The translations under genes and the position numbers were made by a program. Under the pieces are notes generated by a model that did not search any database, was not told where the DNA came from, and worked only from the letters and a program-made list of their open reading frames with translations. A DNA stretch of 47,027 nt from a virus. Positions 23,982 to 37,544 of this stretch are shown here, one piece after another (position 1 is the stretch's first letter; each line of letters starts with the position of its first letter). The stretch lies in IMG/VR virus record IMGVR_UViG_3300047496_000068, positions 1 through 47,027 of that record. One strand, 5' to 3'.

Positions 23982-24059
23982 TGGCGCCGCTCGCAAGGAT
24001 TTGAACCTGCGACCCACGGTTTACAAAACCGTTGCTCTACCAGACTGAGCTAGAGCGGC
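23982..24059 (-). tRNA. tRNA-Thr(UGU)
   Basis: Minus-strand tRNA with encoded CCA. The acceptor stem is GCCGCTC paired with GAGCGGC, D-stem GCTC/GAGC, anticodon stem ACGGT/ACCGT around a loop with TGT, and a TTCAAAT T-loop. The 3' side of the T-stem has one extra base (CCTTGC against GCAGG), so a bulge is needed. Reads ACA codons. Lies 1 bp after tRNA-Arg. Confidence 0.8.
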
Positions 24060-24060
24060 T

Positions 24061-24137
24061 TGGCGTCCCATCCAGGAATTGAACCTGGGACCTTCGGCTC
24101 CGCAAGCCGACGCTCTATCCATCTGAGCTAACAGGAC
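24061..24137 (-). tRNA. tRNA-Arg(GCG)
   Basis: Minus-strand tRNA, 77 nt with encoded CCA. Acceptor GTCCTGT/ATGGGAC (with G-U pairs), D-stem GCTC/GAGC, anticodon stem TCGGC/GCCGA around TTGCGGA, T-stem CCAGG/CCTGG and T-loop TTCAATT. The anticodon is GCG, reading CGC and CGU; most bacteria use ACG (inosine) there. Confidence 0.9.
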
Positions 24138-32413: not shown

Positions 32414-33930
32414 GCCTGCGCGCCTGGCTTTCCCGCGTGTGGAACGGACCCCCGGCGCCCCCCGCACCTGCCGTGGTCCGCAAACCCATCACCGTGCGCC
32501 AGATGGCCCGCGACGAGCCTGAGCAGCGGTCGTTCCGCGAACTCTACGCGCCCGCCCCCACGCCGCCTGGCGTCCCCGCGTCCGCCAAGATGGCGATGGA
32601 CTGGACTGGCGTTAACGATGGGTACGCTTACGGCGCGGGCGGCATCGGGCTTTGCTGCGACGGTGCGCAGTGGCCAGGGTTCGCCTACCTCGCCGAACTG
32701 ACGCAGCGCCCCGAATATCGCCTCTGCGCCGAGGTGTGGGCCAAGGAGATGACGCGCGAGTGGATTGAATTAGTCCACGAGGGTGACGACCCGGACGAAG
32801 ACAAGCTTGCCGAGTTGAATGCCGAGTTGGTGAAATTCGACGTGCGCGCGATCATGCGCACGGCCAAGGAACACGACGGGTTTTTCGGCGCCGGGCAGAT
32901 TTATGTGGACACGGGCGACACGGATAGGTCAGACGTGCTCGCCGCGCCGATGATTTTGGACCCGAAGACCTTCAAGAAGGGCTCGCTGAAGGCCCTACAC
33001 GTCGTCGAGCCGTTCTGGACCTATCCCAACGGCTACGAGAGTTTGAATCCGCTCGTGCGCGGCTATTACGAGCCCGTGACGTGGTTCGTGCAGGGGAACA
33101 TCGTTCACCGCTCCCGCCTACTACGGATTGTCTCGCGCGAGATGCCGGACATTCTGAAACCGGCCTATGCGTTCGCCGGCCTGTCGCTGTCGCAAGCGGT
33201 GCGTCCCTATATCGATAACTGGCTTCGCACGCGCCAGTCGGTGAGTGACCTGACGCACTCGTTCTCGGTGATGGTGCTGAAAACCACCCTTGGATCGCAG
33301 CTCGGAGCGCCCGAACAGGACAACCTGAACACCCGCGTCGATTGGGCCAGCCAGACCGCCGACAACAAGGGCTGGTGGATCATCGACAAGGAAACGGAGG
33401 AAATCGAGAATATCGCCGTGCCCATCGCCGGGCTGGATAAGTTGCAGGCGCAGGCGCTGGAGCAGATATGCGCGATTTCTCAGATACCGAAGGTGAAGCT
33501 TCTGGGGCTTGATCCTGGGGGGCTGAACGCGTCGAGTGAGGGAGAAATTAGGGTCTTTTACGACAACGTAAAGGCTCAGCAAGAGCACGATTTCGCACCA
33601 ATCCTGAAAAACATCCTCGACATTTTGCAGATGAACCTCTGGGGAAAAATCGACCCCGCGATTTCATTCCGATTCATCTCGCTGTGGCAGCTCGACGAAG
33701 CGGCGCAGGCTGCGGTACGCAAGACCGACGCGGACACGGACGCGGTTTACATTGAGGCTGGCGTGATTTCGAACGAGGAAGCGCGCGATAAGCTGCGGAA
33801 CGATAAGAAATCGGGTTACGACGGGCTAGAGGGTCCGGCGCCAGAACCGCCCGAGATGCAGGAGCCGGATGACAGCGGCGATCCGGCGAAGGGTGCGGAG
33901 CCGCGTGGGGCTGAGCGGGATGGCGTCTAA
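32410..33930 (+). CDS. Portal protein (DUF1073 type)
   Basis: A 506-aa portal. Supporting features include a long N-terminal Pro-rich leader, a central conserved domain with QICAISQIPKVKLLGLDPGGLNAS (about residues 350-373), and a C-terminal QQEHDFAPILKNILDILQMN segment, as in DUF1073 portal proteins. The C-terminus is an acidic, flexible tail. Directly downstream of TerL with an ATGA overlap. Confidence 0.9.
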   Translation: MSLRAWLSRVWNGPPAPPAPAVVRKPITVRQMARDEPEQRSFRELYAPAPTPPGVPASAKMAMDWTGVNDGYAYGAGGIGLCCDGAQWPGFAYLAELTQRPEYRLCAEVWAKEMTREWIELVHEGDDPDEDKLAELNAELVKFDVRAIMRTAKEHDGFFGAGQIYVDTGDTDRSDVLAAPMILDPKTFKKGSLKALHVVEPFWTYPNGYESLNPLVRGYYEPVTWFVQGNIVHRSRLLRIVSREMPDILKPAYAFAGLSLSQAVRPYIDNWLRTRQSVSDLTHSFSVMVLKTTLGSQLGAPEQDNLNTRVDWASQTADNKGWWIIDKETEEIENIAVPIAGLDKLQAQALEQICAISQIPKVKLLGLDPGGLNASSEGEIRVFYDNVKAQQEHDFAPILKNILDILQMNLWGKIDPAISFRFISLWQLDEAAQAAVRKTDADTDAVYIEAGVISNEEARDKLRNDKKSGYDGLEGPAPEPPEMQEPDDSGDPAKGAEPRGAERDGV

Positions 33931-34705
33931 CCCGCGCACTCTTCCCCCCATCCGCCCATCCGCCGCAATCCGAGCGGAGTACGACCGCCGCCTGATGGCG
34001 GAGGTTGACGCCATGCAGCGCGACGTGGCTGCGACGTTGGAGCGCGTGTATAAACGCAACACGCCTGAAATCGCTGAGGATGCCAGCCCAGCCCGCACGC
34101 TACAGGCGACCATGCGACGTCTGGGCCGCAAATGGCAGACGCGGTTCGACAAGTTGGCCCCTGAGCTGGCGGCGTATTTCGCCACCGCAACCGAGCGCCG
34201 TGTCTCGTCTGCGCTCATGGCGTCGCTCAAACGGGCCGGGTTCACGGTGAAATTCCAGATGACCCGCGCGCAGAACGACGTGATTCAAGCGACGATTGCC
34301 GAGAACGTGTCGCTGATTAAATCGATTCCAGCGCAATATCTGACGGAGGTGGAGGGCCTGACGATGCGATCAGTCACGGCGGGGCGGGATTTGCAGGTGC
34401 TGAGCGAGGGGTTGCAAGCGCGGTTTGGGGTGACGAAGCGGCGGGCGCGCCTGATATCGCGGGATCAGAATAACAAGGCGACGGCTATGCTGAGCCGTGC
34501 GCGCCATCTGGAATTGGGCGTTGAGGAGGCGATATGGCTGCACAGCGCCGGGGGCCGCCAGCCGAGACGATCGCACGTCGCGCACTCAGGGAAGCGCTAC
34601 AACGTGCGCGAGGGCTGGTATGACCCGGACGCGAAGGAGGTCTGCTGGCCGGGCACGCTGATAAATTGCCGATGCACTTACAAGGCGGTGATTCCAGGGT
34701 TCTAG
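33920..34705 (+). CDS. Head morphogenesis protein (MuF/SPP1 gp7-like)
   Basis: A 261-aa protein of the MuF/gp7 minor head family. I start at MASNPRTLPPIRPS because the longer frame upstream (17 residues) reads like a shadow of the portal tail. Features: a helical middle, then RRARLISRDQNNKATAML and a C-terminal GGRQPRRSHVAHSGKRYNV...CRC(T) block. Associated with minor capsid or DNA-injection roles. Last gene before the tRNA cluster. Confidence 0.8.
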   Translation: MASNPRTLPPIRPSAAIRAEYDRRLMAEVDAMQRDVAATLERVYKRNTPEIAEDASPARTLQATMRRLGRKWQTRFDKLAPELAAYFATATERRVSSALMASLKRAGFTVKFQMTRAQNDVIQATIAENVSLIKSIPAQYLTEVEGLTMRSVTAGRDLQVLSEGLQARFGVTKRRARLISRDQNNKATAMLSRARHLELGVEEAIWLHSAGGRQPRRSHVAHSGKRYNVREGWYDPDAKEVCWPGTLINCRCTYKAVIPGF

Positions 34706-34800
34706 GTTGACGTTCCGCGTTTGCCGTGGTTATTGAAGCGCATGGTTATCGCCCACCTTTCTTCAAGTAGCTCCTCGCGAACATAAAGCGGGTCGAACAC
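34702..34800 (-). CDS. Possible minus-strand microprotein
   Basis: A 32-codon frame starting at GTG (VFDPLYVREELLEERWAITM). It looks protein-like but overlaps the first tRNA at its start, ends on the stop of the plus-strand gene, and has no neighbours in its direction. Probably chance; recorded because the amino acid composition is convincing. Confidence 0.2.
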   Translation of the reverse strand: MFDPLYVREELLEERWAITMRFNNHGKRGTST

Positions 34801-34808
34801 CCGCGTCT

Positions 34809-34894
34809 GGCGGGTGGCGAGCAATGGCGCTCAAGTAGTCTCGAAAACTATGCCAACCGAAAGGTTGAGGGTTCGATTCCTTCACCCGCCGCCA
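34809..34894 (+). tRNA. tRNA-Ser(CGA), non-canonical
   Basis: Plus-strand tRNA with encoded CCA. Perfect 7-bp acceptor (GGCGGGT/ACCCGCC), long variable arm (CAACC/GGTTG with a GAAA loop), T-stem GAGGG/CCTTC with TTCGATT loop, anticodon stem GTAGT/ACTAT around CTCGAAA (anticodon CGA). The D-arm is short (GAGC/GCTC, 6-base loop) with an extra base in the connector, unlike a standard serine tRNA. Confidence 0.7.
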
Positions 34895-34898
34895 TTTC

Positions 34899-34985
34899 GG
34901 ATGGTGAACCGTGTTGGGAACCGGGATCGCCTGCTAAGCGCATCGAACCGCAAGGTTTGAGGATCGTGCCCTCCGCCATCCGCCA
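34899..34985 (+). tRNA. tRNA-Ser(GCU)-like, degenerate
   Basis: Type II arrangement with encoded CCA: acceptor GGATGGT/GCCATCC, a 3-bp D-stem, variable arm CGAACC/GGTTTG with a GCAA loop, and an anticodon loop CTGCTAA (GCU). The anticodon stem needs a bulge, and the T-loop (ATCGTGC) lacks the conserved A58. It may be a decayed or specialised tRNA. Confidence 0.45.
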
Positions 34986-34988
34986 ATC

Positions 34989-35062
34989 GCCCCTCAAGTA
35001 TTTAGGTGATGCACCGTCCTCGTAACTCGGTGAATGGCGTTCAAGTCGTCAGAGGGGCACCA
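34989..35062 (+). tRNA. tRNA-Thr(CGU), non-canonical
   Basis: 74 nt with encoded CCA. Perfect acceptor (GCCCCTC/GAGGGGC), D-stem GTAT/ATGC with a short loop, T-stem TGGCG/CGTCA with loop TTCAAGT. The anticodon loop is CTCGTAA (anticodon CGU), but the two stem pairs nearest the loop are T-T and C-C mismatches. Starts 3 bp after the preceding tRNA. Confidence 0.6.
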
Positions 35063-35098
35063 ATCGGAACCGCCACGCTTCCCATGCGTTCCACCCCC

Positions 35099-35257
35099 AT
35101 GACCCTGATCATCATCATCATCCTGATCCTCCTCCTCTTCGGCGGCCTCCCGTCCATGGGCTGGAACGCGGGCCGAAGCTGGGGCTATGGACCGTCCGGC
35201 TTCCTTGGCCTCATCCTCGTGGTTGTGGTCATTCTCGCGCTTCTCCACTACATCTAG
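35099..35257 (+). CDS. DUF3309 membrane protein
   Basis: A 52-aa protein MTLIIIIILILLLFGGLPSM... with two membrane helices joined by a Trp/Gly/Tyr-rich loop (WNAGRSWGYGPSGFLG), matching the small DUF3309 family common in alphaproteobacteria. An ATG at 35084 is an alternative start. No ribosome site is obvious. Presence in a phage late block is unusual; it may be a host-derived envelope protein. Confidence 0.6.
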   Translation: MTLIIIIILILLLFGGLPSMGWNAGRSWGYGPSGFLGLILVVVVILALLHYI

Positions 35258-35306
35258 ACCTGAAGCCCAACGGCGTGCATACATAGGCGTCCACAAGGAG
35301 CCGCCC

Positions 35307-35783
35307 ATGCGCCGCATCGTTCTAGGTCTCGCGCTGGCGTTCATGGCGTCCGCCGCGTCTGCTCAAGTCACACAGACGGGATCTGTGTTCGCCAACGGGC
35401 AATGGCAGTCTCCGCAACCGACGACAGCCTATTCTCAGGCGTGCGCGGGCGGTGCGGGCGGTGTGGTGGGCCAGTTGGGATGCGCCCAGCCCGTCTCCCC
35501 CGCCGATGGCGCATCGTTCGCCAACATCACCACGGCGACCACCACCGCCGTCAAGTCGGGCGCTGGAAGCCTCCACGCGTTGACGATCAACACCTACGTC
35601 GCATCCGCCACGATCACGATTTATAACAACACGGCGGCGTCGGGTGCGAAAATCGCCACCATCACGCTCCCGTCCACCATTACGGGCGACGCTCCGGTGA
35701 CAATCACCTACGACGTCGCTTTCTCGGCCGGCCTGACCGTCGTTACGTCTGGCGCGACGGACATCACCGTTTCTTATCGATGA
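35307..35783 (+). CDS. Secreted beta-rich protein with signal peptide
   Basis: A 158-aa protein with a Sec signal peptide (MRRIVLGLALAFMASAASAQ, cleavage after residue 20) and a beta-rich remainder of Thr/Ala/Ile-rich strands (ATITIYNNTAASGAKIATI). Good AGGAG ribosome site. A longer in-frame start (35187) is rejected. It resembles phage virion surface proteins, but signal peptides on such proteins are unusual. Confidence 0.6.
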   Translation: MRRIVLGLALAFMASAASAQVTQTGSVFANGQWQSPQPTTAYSQACAGGAGGVVGQLGCAQPVSPADGASFANITTATTTAVKSGAGSLHALTINTYVASATITIYNNTAASGAKIATITLPSTITGDAPVTITYDVAFSAGLTVVTSGATDITVSYR

Positions 35784-35786
35784 CGC

Positions 35787-36239
35787 GTGACTGAATCCGC
35801 CGGGAGCGCCCGAGAGCGCCTAGACATTAACGGCCTCATTCGCCAGCTCGCCGCTGACGTAGCGAAGATGCAGGGGCGCGATGAGGCGCGTGATCAACGG
35901 CTTTCGAGCATCGAAACCGATGTGCGTGAGGCGAGGGATGGCGTGCGCGAAATCGCGGCCGTTCAGGTTGAGCAGAACTTTCCCAAGCAGTTGATGGAGC
36001 TTCGTGCGGAACTGGAGAAGCGCGACACCGAGCGGCGCAGCGATTTGATAAACGCTTCGGATAAAATCAGAACCGAGCTTCGTGAAATCACAAAACGCGT
36101 CGATGTCCTGGAAAAAGAAGATACTCGGCAGGCCGCGACTTGGACTGTTTTCCGCGTCATCAAGGACTATTGGGCGCTGATTTCCTCTATCGCCATCTTG
36201 GGGGCTGGCGTCATATTTGGGAAAATCAAGATTGGGTGA
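35787..36239 (+). CDS. Coiled-coil protein with C-terminal membrane helix
   Basis: A 150-aa protein starting at GTG. Residues about 15-120 are strongly heptad-like (DARDQRLSSIETDVREARDG and following), and about 128-147 form a membrane segment (WALISSIAILGAGVIFGK). A regulator or spacer at the membrane is possible. Function unknown. Confidence 0.55.
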   Translation: MTESAGSARERLDINGLIRQLAADVAKMQGRDEARDQRLSSIETDVREARDGVREIAAVQVEQNFPKQLMELRAELEKRDTERRSDLINASDKIRTELREITKRVDVLEKEDTRQAATWTVFRVIKDYWALISSIAILGAGVIFGKIKIG

Positions 36240-36287
36240 CGGGGCGGCGTCTGTATTAGCGCTGCTCATACTGCTATGGTGGAGGCG

Positions 36288-37544
36288 ATGAACACAGAAG
36301 TTATTTTTGCGATTGATCGCTCCGCCCGGCGCATCGACAAGGACGGCCGCCTCCATGTCGCCGTAACCAACATCTCAAAGGCCACGGTAAACCCGTATTA
36401 CGGCCGCGAAATCCCGGATTCAGAAGCTCTGGGATTGGAGCCTGATATGATTTATCAGGTTTTTCGTGATCCTGAAGAATTGGCGAAGGCCGCCCCGACA
36501 TTCAACAATGTTCCGTTGCTTGACGAGCATGTGATCGTGTCGGCCGATGATCCGAAGAAACACAATATCGTCGGCTCAACCGGCACGGATGCGCGGTTCG
36601 ATGGGGAGTATTTGCAAAACTCCCTCGTGGTCTGGGATGCCGAGGCTATTCGTCGGATTGAAAGCGGCGAACAGAAGGAAATTTCCTGCGCCTATCGATA
36701 TGATGCGGTTAAGCGCAGCGGAACACACAAGGGATTGACGTTCACGTTGGCTATGTCCAATATGCATGGAAATCATGTCGCTCTCGTCAAAGAGGGGCGT
36801 GCTGGGCCTGATGTCGTTGTCGCCGACGCCAAACTTGGGGATGCCAAGATGAAATTTTCCGCCGTCAAGGGCAAAGTGGCCGCCAAGTTCGCCACCGATA
36901 AGGCGTTCAAGGCGGACCGCTCGCGCCTCTTCATCGCTCTTGATGAGATGGAAGAGGAAATGGACGGCGAGGACGAAGAGTGCACCGAAGCCGAGGTCGA
37001 AGAAAAGGCCAAGGATAAGGCTAAGGATGCCAAGGCTAAGGATGCGGCTCGCGACAAAAAGGCGCGAGATAAGGCCGCCAAGGACGCCGAAGAAAAAGAC
37101 GACGACAAAAAGGCGGAAGACGAATCCGAAGAAGACGACGACAAAAAGGAAGACAAGGCCGAAGATAAGAAGGCCATGGACGCCGCAATCGCCGCCGCCG
37201 TCGCCAAGGCCCTGAAGGGTTCCGACGCCCGCGTCACCCAAGCCGCCGACGCCGCCGCTAAGGCCACCATCGCCCGCATCGACGCCCTGAACGCAGCCCG
37301 CGCCCAGGTTCTGCCGCACGTCGGTGATGTGATGGGCATGGACAGCGCCGAGGCGGTTTATCGGTTCGCCTTCGACAAGCTCGACGTGGACGTGTCCGAC
37401 GTCGATCCGTCCGCCTTCCCCGCCATGATGCGCCTGCTTCCCAAGCCCGGCGCCACGCCCATCGCGCAGGACGCCGCAGCCGCTGCGACCGGTGAAGACT
37501 GGTTCGAGAAGAACTTCGGCGTTCGCGCCACGGCCAACGCGTAG
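36288..37544 (+). CDS. Prohead protease/scaffold fusion (DUF2213 type)
   Basis: A 418-aa protein. The first 190 residues match the DUF2213 prohead protease-like family ([42 protein letters not shown]); the rest is a highly charged Lys/Asp/Glu scaffold-like segment (about 205-310) followed by a helical end. It is the expected gene directly upstream of the cement and capsid proteins, with protease and scaffold in one polypeptide. An ATG 12 bases upstream is a possible start. Confidence 0.85.

Follow-up and report, generated by a model that had tools for sequence, protein, structure and literature searches.

Serine tRNAs whose acceptor has 8 bp and whose T stem has 4 bp (hereafter, 8/4) have reportedly been found in bacteria and their phages by Mukai et al. 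in 2017 (Nucleic Acids Res. 45:2776). The two serine tRNAs of the phage locus analyzed here, tRNA-Ser(CGA) and tRNA-Ser(GCU), share with that group both stem lengths, the long variable arm, G73, the serine anticodons and the occurrence in a phage, and are assigned here to this already known kind. The subfamily of tRNA-Ser(GCU) is marked by a U7-G66 wobble that never varies, a T loop with A54 in most members, and a D stem of 4-6 bp.

Two other classes resemble the serine pair in the acceptor branch. The 8/4 allo-tRNAs are SerRS substrates that carry mostly non-serine anticodons (reviewed in PMC7609411). With the allo-tRNAs (8/4 and 9/3; PMC7609411), the pair shares a 12-bp acceptor branch, which is split 8/4, and the SerRS identity elements; however, its anticodons are serine ones, so that no recoding is implied, and assignment to the allo-tRNA class was rejected. 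The resemblance to tRNA-Sec (RF01852) consists of the 8-bp acceptor, the lack of U8, a D stem that reaches 6 bp in members of the Ser-GCU type, and a score of 34.9 bits for Ser-CGA. In contrast to the serine tRNAs of the window, tRNA-Sec has a 13-bp branch (8/5) and a UCA anticodon, and the Ser-CGA score lies below the gathering score of 47 bits, so this assignment was rejected as well.

The third tRNA of the locus, tRNA-Thr(CGU), is about 78% identical to the tRNA-Thr of PAK_P1-like Pseudomonas phages (Pakpunavirus) and has the same A8, D arm and C31-C39 mismatch, but differs in the anticodon, a D loop that is one base shorter, and an additional mismatch, 30-40. Phage tRNAs changed in the anticodon arm are known from T5, where tRNA-Lys resists AriB, the nuclease of PARIS, through changes at bases 39 and 41 (PMC12409363), and from mycobacteriophages, where the loops are changed (PMC10264068). 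Unlike these evading tRNAs, the serine tRNAs of the window have host-like anticodon loops.

The tRNA cluster and its genomic context

The window, that is, the entire stretch of 47,027 bases that was analyzed, is an IMG/VR virus contig. Judged from its genes, which include those for terminase, portal, Mu F-like head protein, head maturation protease, capsid, tail sheath and baseplate, it comes from a contractile-tail phage. The relatives of its terminase in cellular genomes include many Acetobacteraceae, so the host probably belongs to that group. The features relevant to the cluster are as follows.

33869..34705, plus strand: Mu F-like head morphogenesis protein gene, the upstream neighbor (PHROG 324, E=1.5e-80; PF04233)
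34809..34894, plus strand: tRNA-Ser(CGA), 8/4 form, called by ARAGORN at default; acceptor 34809-34816 with 34883-34890, 4-bp T stem, anticodon 34842-34844, long variable arm, G73-CCA 34891-34894
34899..34985, plus strand: tRNA-Ser(GCU), 8/4 form, called by ARAGORN at the relaxed threshold only; acceptor 34899-34906 with 34974-34981, 4-bp T stem, T loop ATCGTGC, anticodon 34933-34935, bulged anticodon stem, G73-CCA 34982-34985
34989..35062, plus strand: tRNA-Thr(CGU), 7/5 form, called by ARAGORN at default; A8 in place of U8, anticodon 35021-35023, mismatches 35017/35027 (30-40) and 35018/35026 (31-39)
35099..35257, plus strand: gene for a small DUF3309 protein of 52 aa, the downstream neighbor (PF11752, E=1.1e-16)
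36276..37544, plus strand: head maturation protease gene, which closes the cargo interval that holds the tRNAs (PHROG 2229, E=2.5e-116)

The sequence-only reading of this DNA had placed three tRNA genes at 34809-35062, between the head morphogenesis and DUF3309 genes, with gaps of 3-4 bp and an encoded CCA on each. ARAGORN confirms the genes and their position, with the check proposed in that reading yielding Ser-CGA and Thr-CGU at default and Ser-GCU at the relaxed setting, which produces many chance calls and alone is not evidence. The spacing (4 nt between Ser-CGA and Ser-GCU, 3 nt between Ser-GCU and Thr-CGU) and the three encoded CCA ends are likewise borne out by the sequence; all three genes are on the plus strand and all anticodon loops are of the form CU-NNN-AA.

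Between them, the Mu F-like and protease genes enclose an interval (34706-36275 in the window) that contains the three tRNAs, the DUF3309 gene and two ORFs without family matches. In relatives, this interval ranges from about 60 bases to 4 kb and is free of tRNAs; given this variation in size, it is a cargo site. The sequence-only reading had staked its account on related phages not having only intact standard tRNAs at this place; we found that the 17 loci with a related Mu F-like gene have no tRNA at all by default ARAGORN. A simple sigma-70 scan, which covers promoters of that type only, detected no promoter-like site near the cluster. Elsewhere in the window, on the minus strand, there is a second tRNA pair, Thr-UGU and Arg-GCG (23982-24137), both canonical and matched by Rfam, which shows that this phage carries ordinary tRNAs too.

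Architecture of the serine tRNAs

Pairing of base 8 with base 65 in both serine tRNAs yields the 8-bp acceptor and the 4-bp T stem, and this pair appears unprompted in the ViennaRNA minimum-energy folds of both. The description of the acceptors as perfect thus holds for the pairing, but not for the length: the serine acceptors extend to 8 bp via 8-65 at the expense of the T stem. In this arrangement, base 8 becomes an acceptor base, the usual U8-A14 core contact is given up, and the D arm is compact or tRNA-Sec-like. Because the 8/4 arrangement takes up U8, which is almost universal in other tRNAs, it alters the core and the D arm, and it explains both why the core is odd and why these tRNAs are poorly detected. 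The 8/4 branch, to which the serine tRNAs chiefly owe their odd structure, was absent from the considerations of the sequence-only reading. The irregularities that it listed, namely, the compact D arm of Ser-CGA and the bulged anticodon stem and abnormal T loop of Ser-GCU, are all present.

The features expected of 8/4 serine tRNAs were found in both: G73 together with a variable arm of 4-5 bp, which are the SerRS identity elements; the serine anticodons CGA and GCU; and the 8-65 pair with the 4-bp T stem, evident from the sequence, the fold and covariation among homologs. The 49-65 pairing that the 7/5 form needs is possible in only 6 of 36 members. Ser-CGA of the window is among these six, with both 8-65 and 49-65 able to pair, so for its 8/4 form the homologs and its own fold are decisive.

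The Rfam model RF00005 did not match any of the three tRNAs of the cluster at E<=1. A covariance model (R3) built from 21 homologs, with no window sequence included, matched Ser-GCU with 76.1 bits (E=3e-15) and Ser-CGA with 51.4 bits (E=1.1e-9), whereas the next-best place in the window was the canonical Thr-UGU at E=0.04, all these E-values being rough. Detection of the serine tRNAs by R3 is not due to chance. Among the 22 aligned sequences, Ser-GCU of the window deviates most: columns 14-24 and 15-23 of the D stem and column 30-44 of the anticodon stem are unpaired in it, and this copy may have undergone partial loss.

Homologs and covariation

Distant BLASTN matches to Ser-CGA, some covering only the 3' two thirds, are represented in 55 phage records, with hosts in Streptomyces, Stenotrophomonas, Klebsiella, Brevundimonas, Escherichia, Pseudomonas, Xanthomonas, Erythrobacter and Salmonella. 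For Ser-GCU, the matches in Brevundimonas phage Bajun, Phaeobacter phage MD18, Stenotrophomonas phage DLP_6 and Rhodobacter phage RcXuper cover the full length, and the match in Caulobacter phage CcrColossus, at first confined to the 3' part, became full length once aligned. All five of these sites lack a tRNA annotation, though they lie within or adjoining tRNA arrays. Further members came from pattern scans of viral contigs, sorted by a purpose-written 8/4 scanner. Because the scanner requires an encoded CCA as well as pairing in the acceptor, the T stem and the inner part of the anticodon stem, these features are biased in the added members; pairing in the D stem and variable arm is not required, and 49-65 pairing is allowed.

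In the Ser-GCU type (n=22; the A9 subfamily, with several serine anticodons), 94.3% of the cells hold standard pairs, compared to a shuffled mean of 72.2%, and both sides vary in 21 of the 27 pairs; neither value was reached in any of 500 shuffles. The D stem and the variable arm, features that were not selected for, are 87% and 97% paired, respectively, with both-side changes in all ten pairs. The 8-65 pair is GC in 14 sequences, AU in four and CG in four, and 7-66 is a U-G wobble in 22 of 22. The Ser-CGA type (n=13) is 96.7% paired, with 8-65 being GC in nine sequences and AU in four. A8-U65 occurs in DLP_6 and PPSC2, both found by BLAST and independent of the scanner. Across phages of Proteobacteria and Streptomyces, the homologs retain the 8/4 architecture, with 8-65 covarying.

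The serine tRNAs inspected in proxy hosts are of the ordinary 7/5 form, and the best cellular match is a tRNA-Sec. The serine model R1 gave no strong match in 190 alphaproteobacterial genomes, and Thr-CGU had no match in 96 of them, both searches being made without a cellular positive control; a host origin of the cluster tRNAs was set aside on these results. A plasmid origin of Thr-CGU was rejected, with no match found.

Two other sites in these phages deserve mention. A tRNA-Tyr of Bajun (L023:2885-2967) has a G8 able to pair with C65, so that the 8/4 form may extend to tyrosine tRNAs. In MD18 (L024:891-971), there is a match to the tRNA-Sec model at 47.7 bits, against a cut-off of 47, which is unannotated in the record.

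Serine tRNAs in phage tRNA arrays

At default settings, ARAGORN found 12 of the 13 members of the Ser-CGA type but only 4 of the 22 of the Ser-GCU type, missing 18. In three phage contigs with near-complete tRNA sets (L153, L154 and L160), it reports at most one serine tRNA, and the serine gap is filled by 8/4 genes with anticodons GCU, CGA, UGA or GGA. PAK_P1 and its kin encode an 8/4 tRNA-Ser(GCU) with A1-U72, matched in 123 Pseudomonas phage records; among the matches listed, 0 of 47 have the Ser-GCU copy annotated as a tRNA (one of the 47 records is wholly unannotated).

PAK_P1 itself has two 8/4 tRNA-Ser genes with A1-U72, for GCU and AGA (L166:1537-1624 and 1710-1799), neither of which is called by ARAGORN. 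Adjoining the near-complete tRNA set of L154, a tmRNA match is located at 388-797 (alpha_tmRNA, 120.6 bits; permuted tmRNA, 129.2 bits). Another viral contig rich in tRNAs (L155:187-260) contains an ARAGORN call with the anticodon CUA (amber).

The threonine tRNA

Relatives of Thr-CGU are the tRNA-Thr of 123 Pseudomonas phage records, that of Milchi, and those of three contigs, L178, L181 and L184, which were found by a D-arm pattern and in which D-arm conservation is by construction. The two anticodon-stem mismatches that had been noticed, U30-U40 (35017/35027) and C31-C39 (35018/35026), are real. Moreover, the tRNA-Thr(CGU) of L181 has an anticodon arm identical base for base to that of the window, including both mismatches, with both-side changes in the acceptor pairs 6-67 and 7-66 and in the T pairs 49-65 and 50-64. 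Judged from its ORFs as we read them, L181 appears to be an unrelated phage contig whose structural genes are P22-like. Of the 8 aligned family members, 7 have a pyrimidine mismatch at 31-39. In the eight-member alignment, Thr-CGU of the window has the A8, the D arm and the 31-39 pyrimidine mismatch of the Pakpunavirus-type lineage, and we classify it as a member of this phage tRNA-Thr lineage with an extra conserved mismatch.

Codon usage and the proposed role

From the anticodons, the three tRNAs would read UCG (Ser-CGA), AGC and AGU (Ser-GCU) and ACG (Thr-CGU). Among the serine and threonine codons of the window phage, UCG and ACG, respectively, are the most frequent. The codons of the three tRNAs occur at 70 per 1000 in late genes compared to 53 in early genes, because the late proteins are richer in threonine and serine; the synonymous shift between late and early genes is not significant. 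A supply of tRNAs for rare codons was rejected on these grounds. All three anticodons (CGA, GCU and CGU) also occur in the tRNAs of the proxy host, Acetobacter thailandicus; given this and the commonness of the codons, the cluster appears to boost or replace host tRNAs for the late operon.

Our main reading, to which we assign a probability of roughly 75%, is that the cluster provides three complete, late-expressed, host-charged tRNAs that top up or replace those of the host. Beyond the observed architecture, conservation, covariation, identity bases and placement between late genes, we infer transcription, processing, charging, decoding and a benefit to the phage. The three tRNAs would be cut from the late (structural) transcript. 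The host SerRS, which depends on the long variable arm and on G73 but not on the anticodon (reviewed in PMC7609411), would charge Ser-CGA and Ser-GCU, and the host ThrRS would charge Thr-CGU. The charged tRNAs would then read UCG, AGC/AGU and ACG in late protein synthesis, supplementing host tRNAs with the same anticodons or replacing them, possibly when defenses have cut the latter.

Alternative explanations

The sequence-only reading had offered decay, that is, tRNA remnants losing structure through drift, as one explanation. The two D-stem pairs missing from Ser-GCU of the window, its bulged anticodon stem, and the tRNA-free state of this site in phages with related head genes are in line with drift. 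However, the 8-bp acceptors are perfect, and G73, CCA and the anticodon loops are intact; the R3 model matches both serine tRNAs; and an outer anticodon-stem break like that of Ser-GCU is found in other members, such as Bajun. Furthermore, the homologs in unrelated phages are conserved and retain the non-standard architecture with compensatory helix changes, and the threonine mismatches are identical in a second phage in which the other stems covary. A tRNA pseudogene would display uncompensated pairing loss and relaxed constraint, whereas we found compensated changes and conserved signatures, with a few extra mismatches in Ser-GCU of the window. Decay thus appears very improbable, and the three look like intact tRNAs of unusual shape. 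About equally improbable, in our estimate, is a non-decoding structural RNA of the late transcript, serving, for example, as RNase P/RNase Z processing marks between head genes or as regulatory tRNA-like RNAs. The three tRNAs have a head gene on either side, on their own strand, and the promoter scan detected no site near them; both observations would fit this role, as would the finding that some soil 8/4 and 9/3 RNAs are unusable in E. coli translation (PMC7609411), but the decoding and identity features are complete, the homologs sit in tRNA arrays away from head genes, and serine isoacceptors of this kind fill the serine gap of full arrays.

The other explanation in the sequence-only reading, escape from host anticodon nucleases, is a tentative possibility and is compatible with the role of the three tRNAs as decoders: their unusual bodies may have been selected because tRNA-cutting host defenses fail to recognize or cut them. 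Thr-CGU is the most concrete possible case. AriB cuts tRNA-Thr(UGU) and, weakly, tRNA-Thr(CGU) in the anticodon stem between bases 40 and 41 (PMC12409363), and the 30-40 and 31-39 mismatches could disrupt the stem at this position; where AriB reads and cuts, the window tRNA has C39-U40-C41 and that of the proxy host U39-G40-A41. With the host itself inferred, these differences are suggestive only, and bases 39-41 vary in ordinary tRNAs too; retention of the 31-39 mismatch in all but one of the aligned family members is consistent with escape. Enzymes that read tRNA shape might be evaded by the serine tRNAs through their 8/4 core and changed arms. Their anticodon loops, however, are host-like (Ser-CGA is identical to its counterpart in the Acetobacter proxy, and Ser-GCU, like Thr-CGU, differs at base 32 only), so that escape would have to act via the body. 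Phage tRNAs with altered nuclease sites are known (PMC10264068), but others are still cut by VapC52 (PMC13273310), and no PARIS, PrrC, RloC or VapC system has been linked to the window phage or its probable host.

Implications

A broader proposition, which we regard as doubtful, is that phages keep and exchange tRNAs with rebuilt bodies rather than rebuilt loops (the 8/4 core in serine tRNAs, the broken upper anticodon stem in threonine tRNA), which would make them unusable by tRNA-cutting defenses yet usable by synthetases and ribosomes. The conserved mismatches in the anticodon stem of the threonine tRNA adjoin a known nuclease cut site, which makes the escape idea cheaply testable in vitro. 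Because 8/4 serine tRNAs are systematically missed, counts of phage tRNAs are biased, and so are arguments from the tRNAs, serine tRNAs among them, that phages lack or avoid.
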